Shown here in pieces: positions 10,875 through 64,000 of a stretch of 64,000 nt of DNA. A model generated the notes under the pieces. That model worked only from the letters and a program-made list of their open reading frames with translations, ran no database searches and was not told the DNA's origin. A program made the translations under genes and the position numbers. The DNA lies in the NCBI GenBank assembly GCA_032358165.1, contig JAALGY010000015.1, positions 2,976,001 to 3,040,000 on the forward strand. The letters run 5' to 3'. Numbering within the stretch: the first letter of the stretch is position 1; each line of letters starts with the position of its first letter. Origin of the DNA: Diplosphaera chodatii (Eukaryota > Chlorophyta > Trebouxiophyceae > Prasiolales > Stichococcaceae).

Positions 10875-11669
10875 TCATTGCAACTTGAATCTGACGTTCA
10901 ACCGGCACTTGCTGCCACCACTGGCGCTGTCTGGCTGCCTGCTGCCCTGCGGTGCGGTGGCAGCCGGTACCGCTGCACATGACACGGCCGCTGCTGCATC
11001 CGCTGCTGCAGGGTCGCCACGACCTACTGGGTGTCCCTGCCAGATGACACATGCTGCAATTGCATGGCGTGTTTCAACAGCCCCTGGCCCATATGCATCC
11101 TGTGATCTGAAATAGCATCCGCCTTGCAGAGCTGATGCAAGCCCACCTTTGCGTGAGGGTCCACAGGTTCTGCTGTCTGCTGCAATGCTGCCTCGGGAGT
11201 TGTGGCCGCAAAACTGTTTGGCAGGCGCCCATTGCATCTGCTGCTGCCGCTGGTGTTGCCGTCGCCACCAGCACTGCCACGCATGCCACCAACAGCATGG
11301 TGCCGCACGTGCATGCGCAGGCCGGCCGTTGTCAAGCGGAGGCAGCAGCGCAGGTGAGAACCCTGCTGCTGCGACGCAGGAGTGGCATGGGGCGCATGTG
11401 CACTGCGGCAATCTGTGCGATGCATGACCAGCCGCACCGCAGCTGCTCCCGAACTTGAGCTGGTCAAGCGCAGTGCTGAAAAGACGATGCGCCACCCCGG
11501 TTCCGCCTGCACGTGTACTACGCTGCAAGCCTGAGAGCAAGCCGAGGACAATCAGCAGTGCCGCGATCAGCTGGCGCAGCAGTGAGCACATGGCATGCGA
11601 AATCAGCTGGGCCGCACATGCTCTCAGCAGTGAAACAAGCATGCTCATGAGGATTACACACCAATGCAC
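10875..11669 (-). pseudogene. Truncated copy of the four-ribbon gene (exon 1 and part of exon 2)
   Basis: Reading leftward, this stretch matches exon 1 of the array genes: the frame ending at 11024 contains SFAATTPEAAL, the same block as SLAATSPGAAV in array copies, followed by a GTGGGC donor. The next stretch resembles exon 2 up to SASGGSKC, where the first cysteine of ribbon 1 should begin, and then runs into a stop. A lone C-x2-C (CRNC) follows in another frame. No ribbon 2, 3 or 4 exon is seen further left. It is the end-most and most degraded copy of the family. Confidence 0.6.
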
Positions 11670-12191
11670 CTTGCAAACTGCACCCTCAGCTGTTGGAAGT
11701 GTCAGATGTAATCCCTCAGGGGTGGACCAGTCAGCGGTGCTCCCTGTTCTGAGCCCGACATCTCACATGTCAGTGATGGATTAACAAGTACCACTCCGTT
11801 TGCACCACCGAGCACATCGTGGCTGATGTTCCAACATGGAGCTAGGTCGTGAAACTGCTTGCATGCAAGATCGAGCTGATGGCCGCAACAGTGACAGTGC
11901 CGTCCAACGCTTCTCTCATACAACGCAGGGTACTTGCATGCGTAGCAGTTCCTGCAGTGTGTGTGTAGCTGTGCACCGTCTATCTATAGATGGCTCAATC
12001 AACCTGGCAGTTGCAACATGCACGTGCTGCTTCCAGCCCTGCTGCTTAGGTGCTTACGCTATATACCGACCCATGGGTATGCCATGACGCTGAGAACAAC
12101 TTGGCACTGCATAGACTGTGCTGAGAACGGCACACTGCCTGACAAACCGCCAGTTGCAGATGCACTGCTTCCGAGGTCATAGACCTTGCGC

Positions 12192-14152
12192 CTATTTGCT
12201 TTTGTTGCGTCGTTCCTCAGAGTATTTCTTGCGACACAGCTTGCAAACTGGTTGCAATCCATCATGCGCGATCCGGAGCGCATGGAACATCCGAGCGGTT
12301 TTTGCCTGCATGCACACCATGCGACGTGCTTGCTAGTAATCTGAGGCCAAATCAGTGGGCATGACCTCCTGTCATCCGGCAGCTGTCACCCGCAAGCCTT
12401 GCACACAGCTGCTCGCTCACCTCGCCACAGCTTGCACACCGCTTGATTGGTGGAACTTCTGACGGTGACGGTGCTTGCCTGCTGCGAACATATGTCAGCT
12501 GCTGGATTCGCTTACACTCAATGCAGTACGCCTCAAGCCCGTCCAAAGAGCAGCTGGTCCGGTGAAACTGCGACGCATCTTTTACCTGCAGCAACATGCT
12601 GCCTGTCATGCACAGGCCGGCTCAAAAGCCAGGCAGCCATGTGTCAGGCGGAGCGACATCCGGGACGAACTTTGCCAGTGACATCATCTCTTCTCGCAAC
12701 AGGCTTAGGCCTCTTCACGAGGTCGACGTGTGTGGACGTGCCGCTAGCACACCACCGCACCACCCGCACCTTGCCACACTCGAAGCACTCCTTTTCGCCG
12801 CCGGGTATGACCCTGCCGCGAGCCTGTACACGGGCGAGTTCCTCCTCGGCCAGACATGCCCTGCACACGCATGCCAGCGTCCCATCACACGGTGGCATGT
12901 CGCCAGCACATGGTGGCACACATGTGCGCCACACATCCAGGAGAATATTCGAACCGCCAGCAGGTGGACAAACGGAAGGAGGTTTGCCGGAGGCGACACG
13001 CACATTGCTCGAAAGTCCAGAGCCCAGAACTGCAGGTTCTGGACACGTAGCACGAGCGGTGGTGGCAGGCGAGCATGGGCATCTGGGTCCCGACCTGCAG
13101 CGAGCTCGTCGGCCGGAGCGATTCTGGCAGTTGATCGCGAAGAAGCCAGCGCGCAGCTCCAAGCCGCACCGCCGGCACACCTGGTCCTCCCCGGTGGGCG
13201 GGTACTCCACCCGGCCACACTTCCTGGACAGGCGAGGCAGGACCAGGACGTGAGCAGGCATCTGCCACCCTGTTCCGCGCTCTCAGCTGCACATGGTGTG
13301 CCCACCCCTAGCCCTAACGTACATGCAGGTGACATGTCCTGGGTACAGTTGCAAGCAATATACCTTAGGGCAGCATGACAGTCTCCTGACAATACCTGGG
13401 CCTGGGTTTGCGGGGCCACCGCTTGGCGTACGCCTCCGAGCTGCAGGCAAAGCACAGCGGCTTCCGCCCGTCCAGCGCCGTCTTCCTGCGCGGGAACAGC
13501 CGCAGAGGGTGCGTCTCGTTGCACTGCTGGCAGCGCTTGGTGCCGCCGCTGTCGCCGCCGTCAGGCTGCTGCGAGCCGGCCTGCTGTGCAGTGGCAACTG
13601 GCGGCGCCGCCGCCGCAGCTGCTGCTGCTCCTGGAGACGCTGGTGGCGTCGCAGCCGTCATCGATGCTGCCGTAACATCTGCTGCGGGCATGCCGCAAGT
13701 CGCCTGTCGGCCCTGCAATTGCACCACCCGGACCGCATGTGACGATCGCAGCCAGGCCCAAAAGAGTGACGCTGCTTGGCATCATGACCTGTGGCACTGC
13801 GACACACTATGTATGGCTGCACTCTCACCCGTGTGGAAGTCTGCAAGGCATCGTCTGCACCCTGCACTGCTGCCTCTGAAGTTGTGGCAGCAAAGCTTTG
13901 GATTTGGCGCCCACAGCTGCTGCTGCTGCTGCTGCCGCCCGCACTGCCGCGGAAGCTGCTGGCAGCATGGTGCTGCATGCCAGCATGCACGCGGCCCGCC
14001 GCCGCTGCACGATGGGTGCGCTGCAGGCGCAGCAACTGCTGCTGCGGGGCATGCGCTTGAGGGCGGAGCCGGCAGGGACGGTGCCGCACATTGCTGGGAA
14101 TGCTGCAGGACCAGTCGGCCCTCAGCTGAGGAGGGACTGAGACAGCTACCAT
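12192..14152 (-). CDS. Gene L: four-zinc-ribbon protein, left arm copy
   Basis: Six exons read leftward: 14152-13829, 13712-13396, 13223-13095, 12860-12770, 12585-12421, 12305-12192 (TAG stop), 379 residues. Exon 1 is low-complexity (Ser, Ala, Gln, His). Ribbon 1 lies in exon 2 (CQQCNETHPLRLF then CFAC); ribbon 2 spans exons 3 and 4 (CRRCGLELRAGFFAI then CRAC); ribbon 3 spans exons 4 and 5 (CFECGK, VKDASQF, DGLEAYCIEC); ribbon 4 spans exons 5 and 6 (CASCGE, AKTARMF, DGLQPVCKLC). The gap between cysteine pairs is 22 residues in all four. The protein ends basic, KKYSEERRNKSK. The start ATG is conserved in gene R. Zinc binding is inferred from the spacing; the function is unknown. Confidence 0.75.
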
Positions 14153-15041
14153 TTGCTGTGCCTAAGCACGTGCGTACGCCTGCACGCAGTACATCATGCT
14201 GTTGGCCCACGCTGTAGTCACACCGCGGCATGTCAGCAGCGGATACATGTCAGTCCAAATACTGGCCCGCACAAGGTCTGCTGCGTGCCGCAACGCTGCA
14301 TATGTGATGCAATGGACATCTGGCCGTCGCAAATACGGCAAGTCGAGCTCCAACGAGATGGGAGGTCTCGCACCAAATCTCCTGCCTCAGTGATGAGTTG
14401 CCCTACTATAGGCTCATCTCTCTCCACACGGCTTGCAGATCAGCTGTCAGAGGTGTATGAACGACTCAATGACAGCAAGATGCATTGCTAGTACGCCCTG
14501 TTGCTGCCTTCTGCCGAAAGTCTACTTTCAACCTCGCCACCTACCACGCCATAACAGGTGGCAGCGCTGCCGAAGGGTCATATCAATCAGCGTGCAGCTT
14601 GCCAAGCGCATGTGTGTGACGCAGCACACGTTGCGGATGTTCCTCCCTCGAACGTATGTTGCACATGCACACCAATTTCAATCCAGGATTACCCGACACT
14701 GCCGCATGCATGTGCTGCTTCCAGGTAGACATCAGCAACTTCTTGAATGTGACATAATGACAGTCGACTAAGAACGCGGGAGTACAGGAATCGGATCACG
14801 ACGCATCCCTCTGCTTTCCCAGTTGATCTGCTACCACCCCGCCTGCCATCGGCTATCACAGCAGCAGCGGCGTCCCCAAACGAGCCATGCCGCGGGAGCC
14901 CTGTTCCACAGACAGCACCCATCTTGCCCATCTTGGCGAACTGGCAGCCGTCACTTCATGCCTGCCATCGCGACCACATACGCTCGTAAGCAGTGTGCCA
15001 AGTGCATTGTTGCAGATACAATGTGACAGCCACCTCTGCAA

Positions 15042-15503
15042 TCACTTGTTGTGCCTGCTGTGCCCTTTCTGCAGCTGGTCGAACTTTTGCCAGCCGCAGC
15101 AGCAAGAGCATGGTGTGCTCATGGTCAAGCCCGCAGACAGGGTGTCGCTCACCAGGCAGCTGAAGGCGCTACCGCAGTAGCCGCACTGCCGCTGCCTGGC
15201 AAGCGACGACGGCTGTCCATCAGGCAGCTGCGCGTTGCCGCCGCTTGCTAGCATGGCAACCAGACACCGGCCAGCTGCCGTTGCTGTGGCGCCGGCGCCC
15301 GCCCCGGCGGCTGCAGGGCTGCCATCGGCACGGCTAGCGCCAGCAGCGCAGGTGGTGCGGCGGCCTGCCACGGCTGCTGCAGGGCTGCCATCGGCATGGC
15401 AAGCGCCAGCAGCGCAGGTGGTGCGGCTGCCTGCCACGGCTGCTGCAGGGCTGCCATCGGCACGGCTAGCGCCAGCAGCGCAGGTGGTGCGGCGGCCTGC
15501 CAC
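15042..15503 (-). CDS. Ala/Gly-rich open frame ending in a paired-cysteine module
   Basis: An open frame of 153 codons whose N-terminal part is translated minisatellite (repeats of about 22 residues containing TTCAAGA and DGSPAAA). The C-terminal part reads RQCGYCGSAFSCLVSDTL, then PCSCC and a basic tail ending GHSRHNK, a C-x2-C-x21-C-x2-C arrangement close to the ribbons of the neighbouring genes. No ATG is conserved and an alternative splice donor (GTGAGC) lies directly after SCL, so the last part may be intronic. The right-arm counterpart is broken. It could be an independent gene, an upstream exon of gene L, or chance. Confidence 0.3.
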   Translation of the reverse strand: MAGRRTTCAAGASRADGSPAAAVAGSRTTCAAGACHADGSPAAAVAGRRTTCAAGASRADGSPAAAGAGAGATATAAGRCLVAMLASGGNAQLPDGQPSSLARQRQCGYCGSAFSCLVSDTLSAGLTMSTPCSCCCGWQKFDQLQKGHSRHNK

Positions 15504-15775
15504 GGCTGCTGCAGGGCTGCCATCGGCATGGCAAGCGCCAGCAGCGCAGGTGGTGCGGCGCCCGCCCCGGCTGCTGCAGGGCTGCCATCGGCACGGCTAG
15601 CGCCAGCAGCGCAGGTGGTGCAGCGGCCTGCCACGGCTGCTGCAGGGCTGCCATCGGCATGGCAAGCGCCAGCAGCGCAGGTGGTGCGGCGCCCGCCCCG
15701 GCTGCTGCAGGGCTGCCATCGGCACGGCTAGCGCCAGCAGCGCAGGTGGTGCGGCTGCCTGCCACGGCTCGCTGG
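15318..15775. repeat. Minisatellite, about seven units of 65-66 bp
   Basis: Units start GCTGCCATCGGCA and end GGCTGCTGCAGG; starts are near 15318, 15384, 15450, 15516, 15582, 15647 and 15713. Most are 66 bp (22 codons), and those with CGCCCGCCCCGG are 65 bp, which shifts the frame. Two versions alternate (CACGGCTAGC and CATGGCAAGC), suggesting growth by doublets. The matching place in the right arm has a single unit. Confidence 0.9.
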
Positions 15776-16622
15776 GGCAGGGGGGCGGTTCCAAGATTCC
15801 AATAATCCAAGATTCCAGGGGCCGTCCGGCAACAAGTTGATCGTCTGCACCGCTGAGCAAAGGCTCCTTCGCTCTGGCTGTGTGACCACCGCTGCCGGTG
15901 CTGCCCCTTCTGTTGCAACGTTCTGCTGCAGGGTACGCAGGAGGGTGCTGTCGCCGATGTGCACTGACTGTGGCTCAACGCCTCTGGCAAGCACGCTGCT
16001 ACTGCTGCTGCTGCTGCTGGTGCTGCTGTTGGTGGCGGCAATGGCGGTCTCTTGGGTTGAAATGTGCACTGCAGGGCTGGCCCCGGCGCGACAGTGCTAA
16101 GAAGCACTTTATGCACTGATTACCAGGGTACTGCCCCTGACGCCGGAAGGCATCAGGCAACAGCGGCTGTGCCGCTCAGCAGGCGCTGCTGAGCCTTGAC
16201 ACGACCGCCGCAGCTGCTGCTGCCGCGACCACCGCCGCCACCATCGCAACCTCTGGACGCCTGGCAGTACAGCCTTACACATTCGTAGCCAAAGAGGATG
16301 AACAGCTGTGCATTCGCCACGAAGTCGCAGCATGGGACGATGCTGTCTGATGTGCAGTGTGGCCTGCACAATGCAGCACTGCACATGGGTCTGCTTAGGA
16401 CGCCTGCAGCGCTAGTCAGATGTCTGGCTGTGGAAACCTGCATCACATTGTTTCCATCGTTGTTTCGTGGCCAAGATGGAGCATGAATCACAACTTTGGG
16501 TGACCCACAAGATGCCTGTACACAGGATAACGCAGCAAGCTCATTGCATGTCCCACCAATCAGGGTAAGCATGTGCCTCTGTATAGTTTCTGCAGTTGCT
16601 GCATCACATCAGTATATGAATG

Positions 16623-18645
16623 TCATTCTTCCTTTTCCCCGCCACTGCGCCATCGTTGTTGTGCTGCTAATGTACAGAGCTTGCACTGATGGCTCAACCC
16701 GTCCGATGTCCCGCGGACCGAATAATAATCCGACCGAGACTTCTCCTATGTGCAGAGATAATAAGTGGTTTGCTGCTCAGCCATACTTCCATAGCCTTCG
16801 CATGAAAGCGATGTTCCAATCTCGCAGCAGGCAGCCATTGTAAAAAGTGCGCCACTGCCGGCTCACCTTGCCGCAAGCTCCACACCGTTTCAGCAAAGGA
16901 GCCGCTGACTCTGGAGGGCCAAGCCTCCCTCGTACAAATTCCCTAGAGACACTCTTCTTACAATCGGAGCAATAGCTCTGCAGTCCATCAAGGTTTGAGC
17001 TGCGACCAAATGCCGAGGCGTCTTTGACCTTGCACGAAGAATGTCGCATTATCAGCAGGGACTGATCCCTGCTTGATTGCATCTGCTAAGTCGTTGACAG
17101 CCGTCCAAAGGTGAGAGAACTAATCGTACCATAGATTCTTCTTGGTTTAATCAATGTAATTATGTTAATTTGCTTATGAAAGATTTAAAAATACAATGGT
17201 GTCACGCATTTGGTGAGTGCTCCGTGCACAAGCAGGGTGTGCATGGAGCAACCTGCACAGCATAATGCAAAGCACTGGGCATCAGGCGCACCTGGCCACA
17301 TCTCCTGCACTCCTTCTCGGCTGGCAGGGCAACTGGCCTGTTGCGCATGGCTAATCGGCGTCTGAGAGCATCCTCAGATTGGCATGGCCTACGTACAAGT
17401 TGCCGGTATTGCTTTTAGCAGATGCCAGCACACGGGTGTACACTCATGCTTTGCAGCGGTACAAGGTGCCAGGTGCTGTCAAGCCTGAAATTGCAAGCAG
17501 CAAGACTTATGCGGAGCAGCATATGACACTCCATTACCCACACTTGCCAACCTGCAACGCGAGTGACGGCCGCAGCACAAGGTACCATCCATGGCAAAGA
17601 AGCTGGCTGGCAGTTCCAGCCCGCACTTTATGCATTGCTGTGGCTCCTGAGTGGGCGGATGGGCACGAGGCAACAGCCTGGACCTGTGAGGAACCAACAT
17701 GTCATGATTCCATCAGCCAGTGACACCCTCGCGGCACACCACCAGCACAACCAGTTGCAGCATGACGCCAGCTTGTCTACAGAGGGGCAGCTTGGCACTT
17801 GCAGGCGATGTGTGAATGTCCGGCATAAAGGCTTGTCTTGGACCTTGTGTGGATGAGCCTATCGCCTGGGTAGAGCCGGTCCCTACCTGGGTTTCCGGGG
17901 CCGCCGCTCTTCATTCACCTCCGCACGACATCCGAAGCACAGCGGCCGGCGGCCGTCTGGCGATGCCTTCATGCGCGGGAACAGTCGCAGCGGGTACGTC
18001 TTGCTGCAACGCTGGCAGCACTTCACATCGCCGCTGCCGCCGTTCTTGGGCTGTGCAGTGTTTTGCTGTGCAACGGCACATGGCTGCACGGGCTCTGCGG
18101 AATTCGATGCTGCTGCTGCTGCTGCTGCTGCGGCGGCGGCGGTGCGCTGCGCAGCAGAGCCGCCACCCAGTGTCAGCCTGTCCTACAGGTGGTGGATGCG
18201 CAATGCATGTCATGCTTGACAAAGCACCTGACTCTTGACAGGCACCCGACTCTTGACAAGCACCCGGCACAGATGTATGCTGTACTGACATCATGCCTGT
18301 CTTCCGTAGCTGCTGGAAGCTCACCCTCACGCAGACGCCGGAAGTGTCAGCTGCCTGACGCACTGCCGCCCCAGGAGATGTGGCCGCAAGACTGCCTGGC
18401 CAAAGCCCATGGCATCTGCTGCTGCCGCAGGTGTTGCCGCCCGCCCCGGCGATGCCATGCATGCTGCCAGCTGCACTGCGCTGCACACTCACATGCCATC
18501 GGTCCGCCCGATGCCAGCGGCGCAGGTGGCAAGGCTGCCGCTGCGGTGCGGCGCCGGCTGGAGGCGCAAGTACATGGCGGCGCTCCGTGTGATGCATGAC
18601 CAGCCGCCCGGAAGCTGCTGCCGAAGCCGTTGTGCCGGGAGACAT
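16623..18645 (-). CDS. T1: four-zinc-ribbon protein, subtype I
   Basis: Exons read leftward: 18645-18325, 18182-17887, 17683-17552, 17388-17292, 17028-16867, 16745-16623, giving 376 residues with phases as in gene L. Ribbon starts are CQRCSKTYPLRLF, CIKCGLELPASFF, CRRCGQ plus VKDASAF, and CGACGK plus EKSRSDY. Ribbon 3 has 21 instead of 22 residues between its cysteine pairs. The start is the ATG of MSPGTTASAAASG, conserved in position in all array copies. The acceptor of exon 4 is GTAG rather than GCAG. The fourth intron carries an AT-rich insertion (17110-17196). All exons are open, so the gene may be active. Confidence 0.7.
17110..17196. repeat. AT-rich insertion in an intron of T1
   Basis: Between CAAAGGTG and GTGTCACGCATTTGG, T1 has about 87 bp of AT-rich sequence containing ATGTAATTATGTTAATTTGC. 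The same intron of T7 and T8 reads straight from AAAGGTG or ACAGGTG into GTGTCACACA, so the stretch was added in T1. Confidence 0.65.
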
Positions 18646-20873: not shown

Positions 20874-22905
20874 CTAACGAGGTCGTCGGGGCAACATGGG
20901 CTGCACCTGCATGGCATGTGTACGTATCATACACCAACATGTGTACCAACCTTGAGACTTCCGGCCATTGCGCCGTCTTTGTTGTGCTGCTGAGGAACAG
21001 ACCCTGCACTCGGTATGCAGCCCATCCGCTGCCGAACGCATTGTATAGAAGTCGTGGCGATACTTCTCCTGTGTGCAGACACGAAGTGGTATTTGCTCAA
21101 CACCTGCCCTTAGAAGATCTTGCAAGTGCACTTGCAGAGTTGATCATCGTATGCAATTTCACCTCACGGCAGGCAGCACTGCAGGTTTTCATTTGGGGGC
21201 CAGCTCACCTTGCCACAGCTTGCACAACGTTTCACCTCTAGGAATGCTGATTCCGGAGGGGCGAGCCTCCCTCTTTGAGTGCTGTTTGTGTGTGTCTTCT
21301 TACAGTCGCAGCAGTAGCTGTGTAGTCCGTCAACGTTCCGCGCATAAAAACTGAATTGCGCGGCGTCCTTGACCTGCAGTACTACAAGATGTCATCTTGT
21401 AACAGCACTGTGACTAGAGGCCACTTGATGTCTGCTGCTGGCACTGATGTACCATAGCGGGACGATCACCCAAGGGCTCCATGTTGGACATCGCAAAGCG
21501 CTTGGCAGCAGGCACACCTCGCCACAATTCCTGCACTGCTTTTCAGTCGGCAGGGCTGCCGGCCTGGCTTGCGTAGTTTTCCAGCTGTTTCTGCACTTCT
21601 CAGACTGACATGCCCTGCACATATTTGCCCGACGTTGCGCATGATACATGGCAGCACAGAGGGTGAATAGTTGTGCTTTGCAGCAGAGGAAGGTGCTGGC
21701 CTGCTGCACTGGTTCACTTGGAGGCATGCAGACTGAATTGTTCTGGGTGCAGCAGCACGCAGTGTGACATTCAAGCACGTCTGTCACTGTCACCTGCAGT
21801 GGCTGTGACGGCCGCAGCTCCTTCTGCCATCAATGGCAAAGAAGCTGGCGGGCAGCTCCAGCCCGCACTTCCGGCACTCCTGCGGCTCCTGGGTGGGTGG
21901 ATGGGCACGGGGCTTTAGCCTGAACCTGCAGGACACCAAAAGGTGCAGCAAGGCTGGACACACTGGTACTGCCCGACTGCGTCACATCTGGCATCACAGG
22001 TCGTGACCATCAGCGGTACAGCACTCTGCTTATCTGGCAATGGGACCAGCTTTGAGCACACTGAGCCAGAACCTATATGTTTGTGGATGGTGCTTGATCT
22101 ACAACACTGTGTTTGCAATGGCATTACCGCATGGGGAAATGCAGCTGACCTGGGTTTGCGGGGCCGCCGCTCTTCATTCACCTCCGCACGACATCCGAAG
22201 CACAGCGGCAGGCGGCCGTCTGGCGATGCCTTCATGCGCGGGAACAGTCGCAGCGGGTACGTCTTGCTGCAACGCTGGCAGCACTTCACATCGCTGCTGC
22301 CGCCGTTCTTGGGCTGTGCAGTGTCCTGCTGTGCAACGGCACGTGGCTGCACGGGCTCTGCGGAATTCGATGCTGCTGCTGCGGCGGCGGTGCGCTGCGC
22401 AGCAGAGCCGCCACCCAGTGTCAGCCGGTCCTACAGGTGGAGGATGCGGAATGCATGTCATGCTTGACAAATCACCTGACTCTTGACAAGCACCCGACTC
22501 TTGACAAGCACCCGGCACAGATGTATGCTGTCCTGACATCATGCCTGTCTTCCGCAGCTGCTGGAAGCTCACCCTCACGCAGACGCCCAAAGTGGCAGCT
22601 GCCTGATGCACTGCCGCCCCAAGGGGTGTGGCGGCCGCAAGACTGCCTGGCCAAAGCCCATGGCATCTGCTGCTGCCGCAGGTGTTGCCGCCCGCCCCGG
22701 CGATGCCATGCATGCTGCCAGCTGCACTGCGCTGCACACTCACATGCAATCGGTCCGCCCTTGCTGAGCGATGCCAGCGACGCAGGTGGCAAGGCTGCCG
22801 CTGCGGTGCGGCGCCGGCTGGAGGCGCACGTGCACGGCGGCGCTCCGCGTGATGTGTGACCAGCCGCCCTGAAGCTGCTGCCGAAGCCAATGTACCGACC
22901 GGCAT
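20874..22905 (-). CDS. T2: four-zinc-ribbon protein, subtype II
   Basis: Exons read leftward: 22905-22573, 22430-22150, 21925-21794, 21614-21518, 21373-21209, 21068-20874, 400 residues. Ribbon 2 reads CRKCGLELPASFFAIDG and ends CRAC across the exon 3/4 junction; ribbon 3 joins CRNCGE to VKDAAQF and DGLHSYCCDC; ribbon 4 joins CASCGK to EKYRHDF and DGLHTECRVC. The tail after ribbon 4 is longer than in subtype I (QRRRNGRKSQGW to MLPRRPR). Exon 1 and about 300 bp upstream are nearly identical to T3 even though the 3' half belongs to the other subtype. Confidence 0.7.
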
Positions 22906-38929: not shown

Positions 38930-38962
38930 CAGGGGATACTAAGTTCAACTTAGTATCCCCTG
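38930..38962. mobile_element. 33-bp palindromic insertion with 8-bp target duplication (hAT-like)
   Basis: CAGGGGATACTAAGTT and its exact reverse complement AACTTAGTATCCCCTG meet around a single C. The unit is flanked by GCAGGCAC at 38922-38929 and GCAGGCAC at 38963-38970; other spacers have this 8-mer once. An 8-bp duplication and CAGGG termini are typical of hAT transposons. It has no interior, so it can only have been moved by another element's transposase. Confidence 0.8.
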
Positions 38963-40114: not shown

Positions 40115-40325
40115 TGCACATGGGTCTGCTCAGGACGCCTGCGGCGCTAGTCAGGTTCTTGGCTGCGCACACCTGCATCACATGGTTTCAAGCACCGTTT
40201 CATGGCCGGGTGGCCGCCAACATGCCTGTCCACAAAATAATGCAGCAAGTTCGTTGCATGTTCCTGGGTAAGCACGTGCCTCTGCAGGGGTTCTGCGGTT
40301 GCTGCATCATATCAGTACATGGACG

Positions 40326-51557: not shown

Positions 51558-53216
51558 TCACTCTTCCTTTTTCCGGCCATTGCGCTGTCGTTGTCGTGCT
51601 GCCAACGAACAAAGCTTGCAAATGGAGTGCAACCCGTCCAATGTCCTACGGACTGCATGGAATTCCTGACGAGACTTCTCCTATGTGCAGAGATAAGTAG
51701 TCGATTGATGCTCAGCCATAAGAGCCTGTGCATGAAAGCGATGTTCCGATCTGGCAGCGGGCAGCCATTGGAAACATTGCGCCACTGCCGGCTCACCTTG
51801 CTGCAAGTTGCACACCGTTTCAGCAAAGGAGCTGCGGACTCAGGAGGGCCAAGCCTCCCTCGTAGAAATTCGCCATGGTTACTTTTCTTACAATCGGAGC
51901 AATAGCTGTGCAGTCCATCAAGGTTGGTCGAGTTGCGATCAAACTCTGAGGCGTCTTTGACCTTGCACGAAGAACATCGCATTATCAGCAGCGACTGATC
52001 CCTGCTTGACAGCGTCTGCTGTGTCGTCGACAGCCGTCCTCAGATATCGCACATTTGGTGAGTGCTCGGTGCACGAGCAGGGTGTGCGTGGAGCAGTCTG
52101 CACAGCATAATGCAAAGCGCTGGGCATCAGGCGCACCTGGCCACATCTCCTGCACTCCTTCTCGGCTGGCAAGGCTGCTTTCCTGTTGCGCATGGCCTTC
52201 CGGCGTCTTGCATCATACTCAGATTGACATGGCCTGCAGTACAAGTTGCCGATATTGTTCTTAGCAGATATTTCATGCCAGCATATGGGTGTCACTCATG
52301 CTGTGCAGCGGTGAAAGGTGCTGGCATGCCACATGTCAAATCTGAAAGATGCAAGCGCCAAGGTTCAAGCGGAGCATATGACACTCCATCCAGCACACTT
52401 GCCAACCTGCAATACGAGCGACGGCCGCAGCACAAGCTAGCATCAATGGTAAAGAAGCTGGCCGGCATGTCCAGCCTGCATATCCGGCACCACTGTGGCT
52501 CCTGAGTGGGCGGATGGGCACGAGGCGACAGCCTGGACCTGTGAGGAACCATGTCACAAGGTTCCATCAGCCAATGATGCCCTCACGGCATGCCACCAGC
52601 TTAAACAGTTGCAGCGTGACGCTAGCTTGCCTATAGAGGACCAGCTCAGCACTTGCAGGCGATTGAGCAATTTCCTGGCATGAAGGCTTGATGTTGGAGC
52701 TTGTGTGGATGAGCCTATTGCCTGGGTGAACTCGCTCCCTAGCTCCCTACCTTGGTTTGCGGGGCCAGCGCTCTTCATTCACCTCCGCACGACATCCGAA
52801 GCACAGGGGGTGCCGGCCATCCGGCGATGCCTTCATGCGCGGAAACAGTCGCAGCGGGTACGGCTTGCCACACCGCTGGCAGCACTTCCTGCCGCCATTG
52901 CGCGTGTCCAACTGTGTGCTACCCGGCTGCATAGCGGCAGCCCGCATGTCGGCTGCTGGCTCTGATGCGTCCGGTGCTGTTGCCGCTGCGCTGATCTCTG
53001 CAGGACCGCCACCAGCCACCAGCCGGCCCTGCAGTCCATCAGGAATGCGGACAAGCTCAGCAAGCATCTGTGCAAGATAAAGACTGACAATATGCAGGAC
53101 ACATTTGAGGCTTGCTGGCGGTCCCCGAGCCCACCTCCGCACAGGTCTCCCTGCTGTCATCTGCAAAGCGCACGGCTGCCTTGGGGGTTTTGGCGGCAAA
53201 AGAGGTAGTCAGGCGC

Positions 53217-53263
<47 letters not shown>

Positions 53264-53464
53264 GTCAGCGCTGTCGTGGATGCAGCCGGCTGCACGATGC
53301 CTCAACTGCCCGTGCAGCCCTCCCGCGTTTGCTGAGCAGCGGTGGCGACGCAAGTGAAGGCACCACTGCCGCTGTGGCAACAACCTCGCTCCATTCGATG
53401 GCGCGCAGCACTCCGTGCGATGCGAGCTCAGCCGCCCTGACACTGTTGCCACGGCGAGCGACAT
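51558..53464 (-). CDS. T10: four-zinc-ribbon protein, subtype I, diverged 5' half
   Basis: Exons read leftward: 53464-53135, 53028-52751, 52538-52407, 52233-52137, 51961-51797, 51680-51558, 374 residues. Exons 3-6 are close to T3, but exons 1 and 2 are unlike the other copies: exon 1 has a run of 13 Ser encoded by the triplet tract at 53222-53261, and exon 2 has its own linker before CQRCGKPYPLRLF. Ribbon 2 has Arg in place of the Gly after the first pair (CRICRLDMPASFF). The start ATG (MSLAVATVSGRL) lines up with that of the sisters, supporting it. Confidence 0.7.
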
Positions 53465-54754
53465 GACATCAGCAGGTACAGCGCGATGCTCCACCTGCAG
53501 GTGTCAATGGAGCATGTTGTAGCATCAGCACCAAGCAGCCGAGTGACTTAACAGGAAGTGGTGCAAGCACAACCCACGTAGACTATGCATGCTGGAGCGT
53601 CGCTGTGAGGGGCGTGCGCACCGGTTTCAGTGCACATGAGCCCGCACGGGCTCACGGGAGGCGAGCAGTTACACTCAATGCGTCGCTGGCAACGACCACT
53701 AAGTGACGACCGTCATGAGCAGCTGGGAACCTGGCGGACTGCTGGCATCAGCAGGGCTGCGATGGCCCTTAGTTTGCATGGCTCACACTACCTGATGCAT
53801 GGGTTGCTTGACAGGCCAAAGTCGAGTCGTGACAAGTTCAGGCTGAGACGACTTTGCGTCGCTCATACAGTCAACAGCGTACTGGTCAAGTAGCAGGAAT
53901 GGTCGGATCATGTGGCAGCTGTCGAGTGCAGATGCACCAGTGCATGATCGCAGCCTTGCAAGAGGTTGATGTGGTACAGCAGTACGGGCAGTGGAGTTGA
54001 TCGACTGGGAGGGTCTATTGCTGCTGGTTTGTACTGCGTCTAGACGTGCTGCACCGATTTGCAAGGGGTTCTGTTCCACGTGCCAACGCACTCTTTGGCG
54101 CATCCAGCATCAGCAAACCACTGCTGGGCGCCACTTTGTGAAGGAGCTCCTGCCGCCTCAGACTTGTCAACTCAAAGGAGGCTTCCTAGCATAGGCTCCT
54201 GGGTCCGTGCTACCTAGGCTGTCAGCAGTCAGATGTCACCACTGCGCGACCCTGCCATGCATTCTGTGTAACCCAAACAACAATGGTGCGGCTTTGCTAT
54301 ACCTAGTGCCATTGGTGCACAGGACCACGACAGCTGGGGCTGTCTCTTGCTATGACTAAGACTGCAGCAAGCCCTTGCCCAGCAGGCAACATCCTCCAGT
54401 CCGTGGCCACTGCCATGCTAGCCAGCCTGCACCGATGCAGGCCACAGACGGTATGCATCACGTGGAGCACTGACGTCTGAGCAGAAACACATGTTTAATT
54501 TGCGCCATGCTCTGAGATTGATACGTCCAGTCCTGCCTGGCCTGATCATCCGGCAATCGCCAACAGTGGCACCATCCCCACCAGTAAGTGCAGGGCAGCA
54601 CTGCTACCCCTTGTGCCTGACAAGCTTGCCTTAAGGACAGAGCGATGTTACCTGCGAAAGCTGTGCCCCTGCTGCCTGGTGGACGGTTGGCCCTGCCCAT
54701 GGGCCGGTTGCGCTACAGCGCTGGTGCCGCATCGTGCAACCCACCACTGCCCTG

Positions 54755-54842
<88 letters not shown>

Positions 54843-55294: not shown

Positions 55295-57441
55295 TCAGTC
55301 CAGCAACAATCTGCGATTTGCACACCAGGCGCATCCCGGCCACATGGCCATTGGCAACTGTATGCAGCCTGGTGTACCGGACCGGCTGCTATTCGGCCCA
55401 CAAAAACTGACTTCCTGCTGCACAGACGGAAGCAGGTGTGGCGGCGCACCTGGTGTTCCCTGCTTTGGGCGTCGCCCATGGCCAGCATCTGAGCGGCAAG
55501 CCTTGCACTGGTGCATCATGCCGTCCAGCGTCCTGCGCTGCTTGTGGAACTCCCCAGGGGTCTTGTACTGCACGCACCACACCGGCTCCGATACGGCGCC
55601 CTCAGGGGTGCAGTGAAGTTTGCAGGGTTTGAACATGGGCGTTGGCTTACCTTGCCACAAGCTGCGCACTTCTTCAGCGGAGGAGCTGCAGACTGCGGGG
55701 GTGCTCGCCGCCCAGTTTGATACGCATATTGGCAAGTCCTTTGGCAATCCTTGCAGTATGGTAGCAGTCCATCACGGCGTCGTGCATCGCGGTTGAATTC
55801 TGAGGCAGCCTTGGTCTGCAGCAACACAGTGGTCGGCATGGCTGCAGGTGAAGCGACCAGTCGATGCCCTCACTTTCAGTTTCGGCTGCGGCAGCAGTGC
55901 TTGCCATTCAACGACGTTGGTGTGGCTGTGGCACGTGAGCTGCATGCAAGACCTGGGTGTGAAGCAGCGCAGCGCACTGTGTGCTCACACCGTATTTGAC
56001 TTGTGCAACAGGCGCACCTTGCTACACATGGTGCATGTTTTCTCATCCGGCACTGTTTTGGTTGTGTCAAGCTCGTGTCTCTTCCTGATCGCCGCACCCT
56101 GCGCAGCCGCACAGGCTCTGCAAAACCGCAAGCACGACAAATCAGACGCCAGCATGCATCAGCAGATGCTGTGCATGTATGCTTTGCTGACAGGTGAGAT
56201 GTATTGCCCAGCTGCAAGCAGGTGTGCCAAGCTCCAAGACAGGCAGCTGCATGGAGAGCCATGGGTCGTGTATGCGTGAGATATCGTGACACGCCTTCAT
56301 CGGCACATCTCAGCCCTAGCCAGCATGTCCAGGCCCGACCTGCAATTGTAGAGACGACCAGAAACGTTGCAGGGCTGGGGTGTGAACCACCGGGCTGCCA
56401 GCTCCAGCCCGCACACCCTGCACACTTGCGGCTCCGCAGTCGGTGGATGGTCGCCGCCAGGGCTCTTGTTCGGCCTGCAAGGGCGCAGATGGCGGGCACA
56501 CTTCACCAGGCAGCCCGACGGCATCTCCAGCCAAGCGCAGTGCAGCCTCTGGCCATCAGCAATGCATGCAACCACTGCGCCCCATGTGACCACACTTCTG
56601 CTGCCAGCAATGGTGCCTCAACTGAGCTGTTCGTCTCATGATGCAGAAGCTGCAAGTTGACGCTTGCCATTGGGTCAACTGCCAGCCGGTGTGCGTGTGC
56701 TGCCGGGATGGATGCACAGCATGAGCTCGCAGGTCAGATCACCGGGGTGTGCGGGGCCACCGTTTCTCATACACCTCCGCACGGCATGCGAAGCACAGCG
56801 GCAGGCGGCCGTCCGGCGTAGAGAAGCTGCGCGGGAACAGCCGCAGCGGGTACGCCTCGTCGCACTCCTGGCAGCGCTTCCTGCCAGGGTCTGCCTGCGT
56901 GCTGGTCTCATGTTCAGCGACCGCCGCACGCTGCTGTGTCGCCGGCGCTGCGGTGGCGAGTAATGCTGCTGCCGTGGGCGCTGTTGTTGGCCCCACGACC
57001 GGTCCATTGGGTACAAGACCTTCGCTGTCAGTGCGCAACTGTCCCTGCACTGAAACGATTGTACACTGCTCACCACACCTGAAGTGCCCAGACCAAGCAT
57101 TGAGCTGATCTCAGGCGGAGCTGCTGCCGGGAGCCCACCTCTTGAAAGGTCTGCGTACTATCGTCGTCATAGGGCAATGCCGCATCAGGAGCCAGGATGC
57201 CGTGACAGCGGGGCAGGCGCCTGCAGCATCCACTGCTGCTGCTGCTGCGCTGCGGATGCCTGCTGCTGATGCTGCTGGTGCTGCGGCCACGCATGGCGCC
57301 GCTGCGCGTGCTGCCAGCTGCACGGTGCTGCGCGCCATAGTGCTGACCCGCAGCTACTGAGTAGTGACAGCACTGCAGGTGACGTCGCTGCTGCAACAGG
57401 CCGCCACAGGATGGCGCAGCACAGCGCTGTGTGCAACACAT
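55295..57441 (-). CDS. T11: four-zinc-ribbon protein, most diverged array copy
   Basis: Exons read leftward: 57441-57139, 57044-56743, 56474-56340, 56117-56018, 55815-55651, 55567-55295, 425 residues. Ribbons: CQECDEAYPLRLF to CFAC; CRVCGLELAARWF to CRAC; CTMCSK plus TKAASEFNRDARRRDGLLPY to CKDC; CAACGK plus YKTPGEFHKQRRTLDGMMHQ to CKAC; all four have 22 residues between pairs. Much has changed around them, so the spacing has been kept by selection. Exon 6 adds about 55 residues beyond the usual end, with four more cysteines including CAWC. The start at 57441 matches the sisters' exon length; upstream ATGs at 57585 and 57612 in the same frame are possible. Confidence 0.75.
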
Positions 57442-58534
57442 GCCGCGGCGACCCGCAGCCGCCGAATCTGCGGGCTGTTTCGGGAAGCTGCAGACCAGGA
57501 TGCGCCTTGACCTACGGTTGCACAGTGCTGCCGCTCCAGCGCACTGCAGCGGTTGAAATGCATGCAGATGGATGTGGTGAATCATGATTGAGTGGCCAAA
57601 GGTGTGCATCATGTGTTCGAAGGTCGCTGCTATGCTTGCAGAAAGGTGCTCATGACAGTGCACCAGCTGTGGCTCGTGGAAGATGGGCGGTTGCACTTGT
57701 GATGCTCCAGAAACAGTTCATTCAGCGGCGGCCCTGCAAGCGGCTGGGAGTCTGGCCGTCAGAGCTACAACATCATTGTTCCACGTCGAGAACATACTGA
57801 AACTCCGACGCTGCGCATGCCGTGCTGCAACGCTGCATCACCAGATCTTGTGTCGTCACAGATGAGGTGTCTGTTCTCGTGTCGTCACATGGGATGTCTG
57901 TAAGGTCCACCTGGTGCTCCACCAGTGCGGTCTAATGTCCTAATGGTTAGGCAGTCAAGCACGATGCTGTACCTTTGTGCACATGCTGTATCCTGGGCTG
58001 GCACCCCGCTGCCGTTGCCGTTGCCGCTGCCGCTGCCGCTGCCGCTGCTGCCGCTTCGACATGCTATGCCTCGACTGGAAGCAGTTGATCAAAGATCCAA
58101 TTGCCTTTAGCACAGCCCTGCTGCTTAGGCTGTTCTACTAGCGTTTTCCCTGGCCGTGTTGAGACATTCGGCAAACGTGACTGCTTAAAGCATGGTGTGC
58201 CGCCTGAATGTCTGCAGCAGCATGCACACACGCTACAGAGCACACAGATGCCCTCACTGTCTGCCTGCTGCTAGCTGGCTGCATCATCATCCACTGGTAC
58301 ACACCAATAACTACATGACAAGCGGCAGAAGAAGTGCACTCTCAACAGCCTGCCATCCTGAAACAAAGTCACTCCTGGCTGCGCGCTGACATACGCTGAC
58401 ATACCAAGCTGAGACGGGCCGCCGCTGCTGCCTGATGCGTGTGATGGGCAACCATCACCACGCGCTATCCCCTTGAGCGATGCTGCCGGGACGACCTTGA
58501 GAGGTGTGCCACCGGCTGGCTGCTGCGTTGCGGC
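57442..58534. other. Junction between array and right arm
   Basis: Unique sequence. It holds a (TGCCGY)n tract at about 58008-58054 and a short imperfect direct repeat around 57845-57900 (TGTCGTCACA). No gene is recognised. Confidence 0.45.
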
Positions 58535-59279
58535 ACAAGCTTGCTGCGTTCTGTGGACAGGCATGTTGTGGGTCACCCAAAGTTGTGATTCATGCTCCAT
58601 CTTGGCCACGAAACAATGCTGGAAACAATGTGATGCAGGTTTCCACAGCCAGTCACCTGACTAGCGCTGCAGGCGTCCTAAGCAGACCCATGTGCAGTGC
58701 TGCATCGTGCAGGCCACACTGCACATCAGGGCAGCATCGTCCCATGCTGCGACTTCGTGGCGAATGCACAGCTGCTCATCCCCTTTGGCTACGAACGTGT
58801 AAGGCTGTACTGTCAAGCGTCCAGAGGTTGCAATGGTGGCGGCAGTGGTCGCGGCAGCAGCAGCTGCGGCGGTCGTGTCAAGGCTCAGCATCGCCTGCTG
58901 AGCGGCACAGCCGCTGTCGCCTGATGCCTTCCCGCGTCAGGGGCAGCACCCTGGTGATCAGTGCATAAAGCGCTTCTCAGCACTGTCGTGCGGGGGGCCA
59001 GCTCTGCAGTGTTTGTGCACATATCAGCCCAAGAGCCGCCATTGCCGCCACCAACACAGCGGCAGCAGCAGCGTGCTTGCCAGAGGCATTGAGCCAAAAT
59101 CAGTGCACATCAGCGACAGCACCCTCCTGCGTACACTGCAGCAGAACAATGCAACGGAAGGGGCAGCACCGGCAGTGGTGGCCATACAGCCAGAGCTAAG
59201 CAGCCTTTGCTCAGCGGTGCAGACGATCAACTTGTTGCTGGCCGGCCCCTTGGAACCGCCCCCCCTGCCCCAGCGAGCC

Positions 59280-59610
59280 GTGACAGGCAGCCGCACCACC
59301 TACGCTGCTGGCGCTAGCCGTGCCGACGGCAGCACTGCAGCGGCCGGGGCGGGCGCCGGCGCCACAGCAACGGCAGCTGGCCGGTGTCTGGTTGCCATGC
59401 TAGCAAGCGGCAGCAACGCGTAGCTGCCTGATGGCACAGCCATCGGCGCTTGCCAGGCAGCGGCAGTGCGGCTACTGCGGTAGCCCTTTCAGCTGCCTGG
59501 TGAGCGACACCCTGTCTGCGGGCTTGACCACGAGGACACCATGCTCTTGCTGCTGCGGCTGGCAAAAGTTTGACCAGCTGCAGAAAGGGCACAGCAGGCA
59601 CAACAAGTGA
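59280..59610 (+). pseudogene. Broken counterpart of the left-arm Ala/Gly-rich frame
   Basis: The same sequence as the left-arm frame at 15042-15503, including RQCGYCGSPFSCL and the GHSRHNK ending. Here a CAG codon has become TAG (about 59421) and an extra base nearby (GATGGCACAGCC, against GATGGACAGCC) shifts the frame. If the left-arm frame is coding, this copy is disabled. Confidence 0.4.
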
Positions 59611-60239
59611 TTGCAGAGGTGGCCGTCACATTGTATCTGCAACAATGCACGCTGCACACCGCTTACCAGCGTGTATGGTCGCGATGGCAGGCATGAAGTG
59701 ACGGCTGCCAGTTCGCCAAGATGGGCAAGATGGGTGCTGTCTGTGGAACAGGGCTCCCGCGGCATGGCTCGTTTGGGGACGCCGCTGCTGCTGTGATAGC
59801 CGATGGCAGGCGGGGTGGTACCACATCAACTGGGAAAGCAGAGAGGATGTGTCGTGATCCGATTCCTGTACTCCCGCGTTCTTAGTCGACTGTCACATGT
59901 GTCACATTCAAGAAGTTGCTGTTGTCTACCTGGAAGCAGCACATGCATGCGGCAGTGTCGGGCAATCCTGGACTGGAATTGGTGTGCATGTGCAATATAC
60001 GCAGGAGGAACAACCGCAACGTGTGCTGCGTCACACATATGCTGAGCATATGTGCTGAGCAAGCTGCACGCTGATTGATATGAACCTTCGGCACGCGCCG
60101 CTGCCACCTGTTACGGCGTGGTCGGTTCCGAGGTTGAAAGCAGAACTTCATCAGCAGAAAGTCAGCAACAGGGCGTACTAGCAATGGATCTTGCTGTCAT
60201 TGAGTCGTCCATACACTTCTGACAGCTGATCTGTCAGCC

Positions 60240-60494
60240 GTGTGGAGAGAGGAGCCTATAGTAGGGCAACCCATCACTGAGGCAGGAGATTTGGTGCCAC
60301 CTCCCATCTCCATGGATCCGTATTTGCGACGGCCAGATGTCCACTGCATTACATATGCAGCGTTGCGGCACGCACCAGACCTTGTGCGGGCCAGTATTCG
60401 AAATGACATGTATCCGCTGCTGCCATGCCGCGGTGTGACTACAGCATGGTTCGATAGCATCATGTACTGCATGCAGGCATACGCACGTGCTTAG
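60240..60494 (+). CDS. Open frame of unknown nature, right arm
   Basis: 84 codons without low-complexity bias (PISMDPYLRRPDVHCITYAA and DMYPLLPCRGVTTAW), ending ten bases before the ATG of gene R. The left arm keeps both halves but in different frames, because ATCTCCATGGATCCG is replaced there by a longer, different segment. There is no known domain. It may be an upstream exon, leader sequence or chance. Confidence 0.2.
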   Translation: MWREEPIVGQPITEAGDLVPPPISMDPYLRRPDVHCITYAALRHAPDLVRASIRNDMYPLLPCRGVTTAWFDSIMYCMQAYARA

Positions 60495-60503
60495 GCACAG
60501 CAT

Positions 60504-61084
60504 ATGGTAGCTGTCTCACTCCATCCTCAGCTGAGGGCCGACTGGTCCTGCGGCACTCTCAGCAATGTGCGGCACCGTCCCTGCCGGCACCACCCTGGAG
60601 CACATGCCCCGCAGCAGCAGCGGTTGCACCTGCACCGCATCCAGCGTGCGGCGGCGGCGGACCGCGTGCATGCTGGCATGCAGCACCATGCTGCCAGCAG
60701 CTTCCACGGCGGTGCGGGCAGCAGCAGCAACTGTGGGCGCGGCATCCGATGCCCCACTGCCACAACCTCAGAGGCAGCAGTGCAGGGGGCAGACGATGCC
60801 TTGCACGCTCCCACACGGGTGAGCGTGTAGCCACAAATGGTATGTCGCAGTGCCACAGGTCATGACGCCAAGCAGCGTCACGCATTGGGCCTGGCTGCGA
60901 TCGTGACATGCGGTCCGGGTGGTGCAATTGCAGGGCCGACTAGCGACTTGTGGCGTTCCCGCAGCAGATGTTACGGCAGCATCGATGTCGGCTGCGAAGC
61001 CACCAGCATCTCCAGGAGCAACAGCAGCTGCGGCGGCGGCGCCGCCAGCTGCCCCTGCACAGCAGGCCAGTGCGCAGCAGCCTG

Positions 61085-61116
<32 letters not shown>

Positions 61117-62518
61117 AGCGGCGGCACAAAGCGCTGCCAGCAGTGCAATGAGACGCACCCTCTGCGGCTGTTCCCGCGCAGGAAGACGGCGCTGGACGGG
61201 CGGAAGCAGCTGTGCTTTGCCTGCAGCTCGGAGGCATACGCCAAGCGGTGGCCCCGCAAACCCAGGCCCAGGTATTGTCAGCAGACTGTCATGCTGCCCT
61301 AAGGTATACTGTTTGTAACTGTACCCAGGACATGTCACCTGCATGTACGTTATGGTGAGGGTTGGGCACACCATGTGCAGCTGAGAGCGCGTAACAGGGT
61401 GTCAGATGCCTGCTCACGTCCTGGTCCTGCCTCGCCTGTCCAGGAAGTCCAGCAGCGGCTGCCCGCCCACCGGGGAGGACCAGGTGTGCCGGCGGTGCGG
61501 CTCGAAGCTGCGCGCCGGCTTCTTCGCGATCGACCGCCGGAGGCGCTCCGGCCGACGAGCTCGCTGCAGGTCGGGACCCAGATGCCCATGCTCGCCTGCC
61601 ACTACCGCTCGTGCTACGTGTCCAGGACACCGCAGCTCTGGGTTTGCGAGCAGCGTGTGTGTCGTTCCCAGCAGCCCTCCTTTCGTGCATCCACCTGCTG
61701 GCAGTTCGACATCCCTCCCGGATGTGTGGCGCACACGTGTGCTACCGTGTGCTGGCGACATGTCAACGTGTGATGGGACGCTGGCATGCGTGTGCAGGGC
61801 ATGTCTAGCCGAGGAGGACATCGCCCGTGCACAGGCTCGCGACACGGTCATAACAGGCGAAAAGCAGTGCTTCGAGTGTGGCAAGGTGCGGGTGGTGCGG
61901 TGGTGTGCTGGTGGCACGTCCACATTTGCACACCTCGTGGAAAGAGGCCCGAGCCTCTTGCGACACAGATGTTGTCATGGCTGTATTTGCCCCAAAGTAT
62001 TGCTCTGTCCGACACATGGCTGCCTCCCCTCGAGCTGGCCCGTGCACCTGCAAACATGACGGGCAGCATGTTGCTGCAGGTGAAAGCCGCCTCGCAGTTC
62101 TACCGATGCAGCGGTTCTTCGGACGGTCTGAAGGCGTACTGCATTCAGTGTGAACGTGTGCGGCATCATACATATATCCGCAGAAGGGAAGCACCCTCAC
62201 CGTCAGAAGTTCCACCAATCAAGCGGTGTGCAAGCTGTGGCGAGGTGAGCGAGCACCTGTGTGCAAGGCTTGCGGGTGACAGCTGCCGGATGGCAGGAGG
62301 TCATGCCCACTGATTTGGCATGAGAATACTAGCAATCAAATCGCATGGTGTGCATGCAGGCGAAACCCGCTCGGATGTTCTATGCGTGCCAGAGCGCGCA
62401 GGATGGATTGCAGCGATGTTGCATGCTGTGCCAAATGGACTCTAGGAACGCCGCAAGAGCAGACAGGCGCAAGGTTCATGACCTCGGAAGCAGTGCATCT
62501 GCACCTGGCGGTTTGTGA
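60504..62518 (+). CDS. Gene R: four-zinc-ribbon protein, reference copy on + strand
   Basis: Exons 60504-60818, 60934-61271, 61444-61569, 61798-61885, 62080-62244, 62360-62518, 396 residues. Exon 1 is low-complexity, ending SEAAVQGADDALHAPTR. Exon 2 has Ala runs, ten Gly in a row and ribbon 1 (CQQCNETHPLRLF to CFAC, residues about 184-213). Ribbon 2 (CRRCGSKLRAGFFAI to CRAC) is cut by the intron between the last two cysteines. Ribbons 3 (CFECGK, VKAASQF, DGLKAYCIQC) and 4 (CASCGE, AKPARMF, DGLQRCCMLC) are both cut right after the CxxCG pair. Each ribbon has 22 residues between pairs. The tail after ribbon 4 is longer than in gene L. A zinc-dependent nucleic-acid or protein binding role is plausible but unproven. 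Confidence 0.8.
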
Positions 62519-64000
62519 GGCAGTGTGCTATGAACGTGGTGGCAGTGAACGTGGTGTCAGTGTGGTGGCAAAACAACATGCACACGTTATGTCACTTTGG
62601 TACACAACGATATTGAGGGCGGAGCATCAGAGCTACGGACTATTGCGTCCACAACTGTGCCGATGGACCAGGCTGATTCGAAGAGCACTGATTGCGCTCA
62701 CAACACCATCCAATACAAGCTAGCCTTTCGGCAACACTACCCAATGCCTGCCATGTTGTCAAGTATGTGTCGAAGAGTCCAGACACCGTGTGGCAGGTGT
62801 GAACCAGTCCACCCCCAACTCGCAACACGATTGTACCATTCAACCCGCCGTGCTACCGTCTCAGCAACAGCCGCCGCTGCTAAACCAGGCTTTATGCTTG
62901 ACATGCATAGTGCGTTGAGCGACTTGCCACGAGCACACGCCGCTGGAACTGCATTCAAGGTTCTGATTCGCCTGTATCAGGCGCTAGCATGCTGCGCGGC
63001 GAAAAAACAACAGGCACCCGCCATCGCTGACAACGCACTGCCACCCAAATGCATCAGGCCGACTGCAACCGCACAGCCCGTAGCGCTGATCGACGGTTCC
63101 AGGCCCTTCGCTGGCTGGCCGTCGAGCTGTGCTGGGCCGAGGGCGCAGACTGAGGTGGCGGGTCCTAGTGGCATATATCGCCACTGCTTGAGCGGCCAGC
63201 TCCGTCAGGGTGCTTAGCGAGACGACAGGGCCATGCAACGCTGCTGCTGCAGGGTTTTTCTGCTGCAGCTTCTGGGGTGTTTGCTCCGCCGCTAGCTCCG
63301 TGGGCTGAGGGCGCGGAGCCGAGCAGACCAGGCCCACAGCTGCAGTAGGGCTGAGCCCTGTCATTCCTGTAGCCCCGCATCTCTGCCGCCGCTGCCGCTG
63401 CTGAATGACAGCAGCCCCGCCCATGGACCGCTGCAGGGCTGCTAGTGACGGGGCCGGTGCCGCTGACGGTGGCGGCGCCGTAGTCTAGGGTCTGCCGAGC
63501 CCGAGGGCTGCCTGGGGGCTGCCACCAGGACGGACGACCAGGCCGGCAGCGCCGATGCTCGGGGCCTCCCTCGCCCTGGCGCTGCCCCTGGCGCCGCTGC
63601 AGTCACCGAAGCCCGCCGCCGTGGGTCTGCCTGCGGGCCATCCAGGCTATGCATGCGTCTGTGCTCATCTTGCGCAATAGGTGTCGCCGCCGTCAGGCAA
63701 GGCAGCCGTTCCCTGGCGCCCCGCAGCCGCGTCGCTGCCAGCGTGTGCTGTGTTGGCTGTGCTGGCTCAGGAACAAGGTGCTGCTGGGTCGGCGCCATGG
63801 GCCGGCTGCGGCGCTGCCCTGGCTGCAGCCTTGCCGCCAGAACCTGCACCGGAGTAATACCGTTGCCACGGCTTTTTGAACCTGCGACAGCTGCTGCGTG
63901 CGCAGCAGGTGGAGCACAGCCACACGCACAAGAGAGAGCAGCAATATCTTTACTCATTTATTTTTGTCCACCAAGCTTGCTGTCATCCCAGGATGCTCGA
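62519..64000. other. Right flank, no confident gene
   Basis: A + strand frame of 206 codons (62597-63217) starts at GTG and has no domain, and a - strand frame of 146 codons (62984-63424) overlaps it. Both are Ala/Arg rich. Matches to the inverted repeat end at about 62527. Confidence 0.4.
63442..63957 (-). CDS. Open frame resembling a decayed or partial ribbon-gene 5' end
   Basis: 171 codons from a true ATG (MSKDIAALSCACGCAPPAAH), Ala/Pro/Arg rich. The stretch GITPVQVLAARLQPGQRRSR resembles MMQVLAARLEPKQHCSR at about 55.25 kb, just beyond T11. No cysteine ribbon follows, and gene R occupies the sequence where further exons would lie. It could be the first exon of another family member or chance. 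Confidence 0.25.
   Translation of the reverse strand: MSKDIAALSCACGCAPPAAHAAAVAGSKSRGNGITPVQVLAARLQPGQRRSRPMAPTQQHLVPEPAQPTQHTLAATRLRGARERLPCLTAATPIAQDEHRRMHSLDGPQADPRRRASVTAAAPGAAPGRGRPRASALPAWSSVLVAAPRQPSGSADPRLRRRHRQRHRPRH

Follow-up and report, generated by a model that had tools for sequence, protein, structure and literature searches.

A tandem cluster of stand-alone four-zinc-ribbon genes related to nuclease-linked ribbons in the green alga Diplosphaera chodatii

Zinc-ribbon arrays standing beside nuclease domains are already known: endonuclease VII and HNH nucleases (profiles phrog_1035, phrog_2633 and phrog_2255; database proteins P0017, P0022, P0025 and probably P0019) carry up to four ribbons in a row, spaced at about C-x2-C-x19-22-C-x2-C. 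Ribbons of this kind are also covered by the profile of a restriction alleviation family (phrog_5558), a 130-position phage profile in which "Lar-like" is an annotation name rather than a tested function. Further likenesses are offered by the non-catalytic zinc module of Hpy99I (residues ~59-106), part of a restriction enzyme dimer, and by the tandem zinc finger domain of Stc1 (PF12898, 2luy), which resembles the ribbons weakly in profile and fold but whose first finger has more widely spaced cysteines. Another group of green-algal paralogs is the OPR-NCL subfamily of Chlamydomonas (PMC8635915); its proteins have octotricopeptide repeats (OPR) and a RAP domain instead of zinc ribbons. Here we analyze a gene cluster within 64,000 nucleotides of Diplosphaera chodatii (assembly GCA_032358165.1, contig JAALGY010000015.1, positions 2,976,001 to 3,040,000; hereafter the window), whose genes share the ribbon type and spacing of endonuclease VII and HNH nucleases but show no nuclease domain, are split by introns and are amplified. 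With ribbon arrays already familiar from nucleases, the finding is more ordinary in its parts than a first-pass annotation of the window had stated; the surprise lies in a large family without nuclease domains, constant at the front and variable at the back.

Each protein comprises four Cys4 ribbons of ~36 residues, and the 16 cysteines are invariant in 11/11 aligned members from five contigs (an alignment drawn from the 22 models then in hand), bearing out the four ribbons per protein that the first-pass annotation had read from the letters. No His or Asn is invariant among these 11 members, and outside the alignment gene C33i and relative P0009 are each one cysteine short. Four times four cysteines at near-fixed spacing in every aligned member is, judged from the alignment itself, not chance. 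Introns 3 and 4 of copy K lie at an equivalent position within ribbons 3 and 4, and its intron 2 falls within the last CxxC of ribbon 2. In the PHROGs database all 11 members match phrog_5558 (best E 2.1e-32) and the endonuclease VII profiles phrog_1035 and phrog_2633, and 10 of the 11 match the HNH profile phrog_2255; in copy K, the only member whose match table was inspected, the matched stretches are the ribbons. Pfam gives no significant match for copy K, and NCBIfam gives a weak Elf1 match only (14.9 bits, 109 being needed). The fold of the Hpy99I module resembles one ribbon in each of two predicted models, at a sequence identity of ~20%.

Three protein searches listed partly overlapping sets of relatives: one at an E limit of 0.001, eight at the same limit and 16 at 0.01. 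Seven of these (P0007-P0011, P0015 and P0016; ena or jgi sources) look like members of the same family. Others join ribbons to nucleases: P0017 combines four ribbons with an endonuclease VII domain (PF02945), P0025 three ribbons and endonuclease VII, and P0022 two ribbons and HNH_3, while P0019 (four ribbons) and P0020 (three) match the phage endonuclease VII profile into their C-terminal part; P0021 consists of three ribbons alone. Matches of relatives to Cytochrome_C7, one of them above the cut-off, were attributed to CxxC motifs. Together with the PHROGs profiles, this domain make-up confirms the likeness to ribbons beside HNH and endonuclease VII nucleases that had been proposed for the cluster, and it sharpens the earlier verdict of "no recognised function". 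Ribbon matches occur in phage and giant-virus proteins as well. Among these is gp2 of Gordonia phage Jumbo, a hypothetical protein with no listed nuclease domain, whose gene adjoins a helicase gene. Viral contigs and prokaryotic genomes, scanned with two short peptide patterns (an insensitive approach), gave no confirmed match, and no paper was recognisable from its title or the start of its abstract as describing this ribbon family.

The catalytic domain that the first-pass annotation could not see was not detected by Pfam either: neither copy K nor the 11 aligned members give a nuclease match of the beta-beta-alpha-Me type. In our models, which leave room for a further spliced exon, the window genes stop shortly after ribbon 4; from model end to stop there are 0 to 108 in-frame residues in the window genes and copy N, and at most 52 in 13 of these 14. 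A catalytic partner was sought across the genome with nuclease-domain searches that ignore introns. PF01844 (HNH) gives four matches, on contigs C15, C47, C10 and C37, none of them near a ribbon cluster found here, the listed ribbon matches on C47 and C10 lying more than 200 kb off. PF13392 gives no match with its positive control detected, PF02945 no match with its control not detected either, and PF05551 a single weak match below the cut-off. The PF01844 match at C15:1480001-1485000 lies in a 359-residue open frame with no ribbon array in that frame.

The copies tested are under purifying selection. We calculated the ratio of nonsynonymous to synonymous substitution rates (dN/dS, NG86) for 13 sequences (A-I, K, L, M and N, with J dropped) and found it below 1 in 78/78 pairs, with a median of 0.47 (0.50 in the 36 pairs among nine tandem copies), so that the value close to 1 across all copies for which the first-pass annotation had proposed looking is not what the copies show. 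Two pairs are near neutral (A-M, 0.89; C-F, 1.00). Constraint is stronger on ribbon 1: pooled over the nine tandem copies, ribbon 1 has a ratio of nonsynonymous to synonymous differences per site (pN/pS) of 0.25, against 0.60 for the remainder (intervals overlap slightly; codon bootstrap P 0.014). In 43/45 pairs among 10 modelled genes of contig C33, ribbon 1 shows the highest conservation of the four segments compared; the exceptions are one tie and one pair with the intron above ribbon 1.

Sliding identity along nine pairs of units, six of them between types, divides the unit in two. Copy K apart, identity is mostly 75-100% upstream of and through ribbon 1 and mostly 45-70% past the junction of exon 1 and intron 1, the alignment switching directly after a shared AG/GT; identity of ~90% is regained ~300 bp beyond the stop in four of the six between-type pairs, and later in the two with H. 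Ribbons 2-4 come as two cassettes, each persisting in five copies (Table 1). All 25 between-type pairs are alike in ribbon 1 (identity 0.878-0.985) and differ in the intron, where identity is 0.466-0.548 and thus near the shuffled baseline of 0.42; intron identity within types is 0.82-0.98; over the 900 bp before ribbon 1, between-type identity is 0.835-0.928 (20 pairs, K left out). K itself has a 5' module unlike those of the nine others (0.53-0.58), yet shares ribbon 1 and the type-1 cassette. As read from these sequence comparisons, units B-K are thus mosaics, in which a similar 5' part with ribbon 1 is followed by either of two ancient cassettes carrying ribbons 2-4. Most probably, gene conversion has made the flanks uniform and halted on meeting the heterologous cassette; active exchange of cassettes would leave the same pattern.

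The family extends beyond the window. Searches of the 85.6 Mb assembly (55 contigs) for R1-type or R2-R4-type matches count ~66 family loci, such counts being lower bounds and most loci not having been checked for intactness: on C13 the 13 of the window, copy N and eight others, 32 on C33, three each on C10 and C50, two each on C22 and C49, and one each on C30 and C29. The C33 loci form a second, larger cluster of four-ribbon loci on both strands (C33:163000-283500), and R2-R4 lie within one exon in 10/10 of its modelled genes. The cluster first noticed is real but a small part of a genome-wide family. Two modelled copies outside the window, C33f and C50a, contain in-frame stops. More distant ribbon proteins occur on further contigs; at C27:1371001-1375500 there are several open frames, each holding one or two ribbons, that may perhaps be one multi-exon, multi-ribbon gene.

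The reading we favor, and to which we give about an even chance, is that the genes encode dead, nuclease-related DNA-binding ribbon arrays. Each gene would produce a stand-alone array of four treble-clef-like Cys4 ribbons from which the nuclease part is absent, the array having probably been captured from, or having descended together with, an endonuclease VII/HNH-type nuclease and having then been amplified by tandem duplication. The proteins would bind but not cut DNA or structured nucleic acid; the more constrained ribbon 1 may do a shared job such as partner binding or anchoring, and ribbons 2-4, in their two diverged cassettes, may set target preference. A plausible role would be to regulate or silence DNA that is foreign, repetitive or organellar. 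Apart from the "Lar-like" label, no task is assigned to the ribbons themselves in the matched families, and loci in such number, nuclease-free where modelled and under selection where tested, offer a way to learn what the arrays bind. The mosaic array is also a concrete system for studying how tandem genes can retain both types of cassette in units that are otherwise kept similar.

Using copy K as query with GT-AG introns imposed, a spliced aligner finds the same five ribbon-bearing exons and four introns in 13/13 copies, with a frameshift there in J only; since the aligner imposes these borders and starts from K, the agreement of exon borders is partly built in. Not built in is the frame that stays open across the ribbon exons in 12/13 copies. 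Clean six-exon models that include a tentative upstream exon 0 are obtained for 8/13 copies (B, C, D, F, H, I, K and L), while E and M have a frameshift in exon 0, J has one in exon 4, and A and G need extra small introns. The earlier count of nine intact copies is thus close to the number of clean six-exon models but too low for the ribbon part. In the unit alignment, exon windows have synonymous fractions of 0.45 to 0.70 in the gene's frame, and some opposite-strand windows reach 0.43-0.60. One spacer window with an opposite-strand synonymous bias raised the candidate of a second gene per unit, which was rejected on finding that its open reading frames (ORFs) are not kept open across nine units; an initial model of copy K, with its start Met inside the presumed first intron, was replaced by the six-exon model. 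Exon 0 has a phase-0 donor, lies upstream of the ribbon exons and is compatible with many copies, and its pN/pS is 0.85, against 1.00 and 0.83 in shifted frames. Being no lower than the shifted-frame value of 0.83, this ratio leaves the coding status of exon 0 unproven. Copy K has a triplet run in its tentative exon 0 that translates into poly-Ser.

Alternatively, the proteins could be nuclear-encoded gene-expression factors imported into plastid or mitochondrion and amplified like the OPR-NCL family, an idea we regard as possible but unlikely. The tentative exon 0 is Arg/Ala-rich and acid-poor: eight hand-picked lineage representatives average 1.5 D+E and 9.25 K+R per 66 residues, compared with 3.15 and 7.1 in 301 ATG peptides of the window (P values of 0.007 (D+E) and 0.002 (net charge) presuppose independent lineages, which these are not, so that they are suggestive only), but a gene-by-gene comparison with background peptides does not discriminate. 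Just before the mature part, the motif V-R-C-[AEV]-A, which resembles a plastid cleavage site, occurs in 7/10 modelled C33 genes, in 1/2 on C50 and in one of the three database relatives that show the region (P0013), but not in the window models. The mature part consists of ribbons and gives no Pfam match to tandem helical repeats of the OPR or pentatricopeptide (PPR) kind in K or the 11 members.

Unlikely to a similar degree is that ribbons of invader nucleases have become a clustered, diversifying defence family that recognises viruses or mobile elements. Clustered amplification to so many loci, the faster change of ribbons 2-4, the two cassette types retained in a more uniform frame and the relatives in giant viruses and phages all fit such a family, but PADLOC matches 0/11 members, no effector domain was found, and every pair has dN/dS below 1. 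A more specific version, in which a constant-plus-variable DNA-recognition repertoire made from nuclease ribbons keeps a common leader and ribbon 1 in its tandem genes, swaps its ribbon 2-4 cassettes by conversion, with the border at the first intron, and so yields a diversifying set of readers of viral or mobile DNA, seems to us decidedly unlikely. Decay of a homing-type or mobile nuclease, its remnants passively amplified by unequal crossing-over, is improbable: it would account for the near-neutral A-M and C-F pairs, for the remnant and the frameshifts, and for ribbons in phage nucleases, but not for a ribbon frame kept in nearly all copies, for invariant cysteines in members from five contigs, for dN/dS below 1 in every pair or for HNH matches that all lie away from the ribbon clusters found here. 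Finally, chromatin adaptors with tandem zinc fingers like Stc1, which links small RNAs to silencing, are very improbable, for although 4/11 members match the Pfam family at E up to 1 (best 5.3e-5), relatives P0012 and P0018 pass its cut-off and Foldseek ranks 2luy third for both predicted models, copy K scores only 8.9 bits where the cut-off is 24.8, a whole-genome search gives no match at E 0.01 (with an uninformative control), and nuclease-linked ribbon families match far better.

Self-comparison and ribbon-1 motifs confirm the layout given by the first-pass annotation, namely 13 gene copies and a remnant at 10875-62527, 11 of the copies head to tail and one in each arm of an inverted repeat (Table 1). 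The tandem units occupy ~16-57 kb on the minus strand, most of them enclosed by the inverted pair; the ribbon-1 motifs number 12 on the minus strand and one on the plus strand, with a spacing of 3.4-4.3 kb within B-L. The right edge of the cluster is an effect of the window, copy N continuing the array, and on the left the protein search of the genome lists no ribbon match below window position 12409.

Table 1. Features of the ribbon-gene cluster, in window coordinates
Feature	Position	Strand	Remarks
Remnant	10875-11762	minus	like 5' part of units, without ribbons
Left inverted-repeat arm	12130-16541		pairs with 62528-58538, 88% identity, two pieces; self-comparison
Copy A (left arm)	12195-13712	minus	five ribbon-bearing exons; exon 0 uncertain, model to 14868 with extra introns
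Copy B	16626-18645	minus	exons 18645-18325, 18182-17887, 17683-17552, 17388-17292, 17028-16867, 16745-16626; cassette type 1
Copy C	20952-22905	minus	six exons; cassette type 2
Variable cassette (example, copy D)	24600-26091	minus	exon 1/intron 1 junction to ~300 bp beyond stop; 3' edge approximate
Copy D	24907-26831	minus	six exons; cassette type 1
Copy E	28810-30767	minus	cassette type 2; tentative exon 0 frameshifted, ribbon exons intact
Copy F	32542-34481	minus	six exons; cassette type 2
Copy G	36401-38339	minus	cassette type 2; exon 0/1 junction ambiguous
Copy H	40329-42298	minus	six exons; cassette type 1
Copy I	43764-45718	minus	six exons; cassette type 1
Copy J	47577-49544	minus	cassette type 2; exon 4 (47837-48005) frameshifted
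Copy K	51558-53464	minus	exons 53464-53135, 53028-52751, 52538-52407, 52233-52137, 51961-51797, 51680-51558; cassette type 1, different 5' module
Copy L	55454-57498	minus	divergent; six-exon model without frameshift
Right inverted-repeat arm	58538-62528		self-comparison
Copy M (right arm)	60518-62473	plus	ribbon exons intact; frameshift in tentative exon 0
Copy N (14th copy; C13)	64042-66154 (window-equivalent)		just right of window; six-exon model without frameshift

Among flanking and internal ORFs, 0/20 tested (of 106 listed) have a Pfam match. The left inverted-repeat arm contains a tandem minisatellite with a 66-base (131-base) unit at 15293-15774, and a (CTG)30 repeat, distinct from the triplet run of copy K, lies at 54752-54842. 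A tRNA gene (Rfam RF00005) is located on the plus strand at 341-414.

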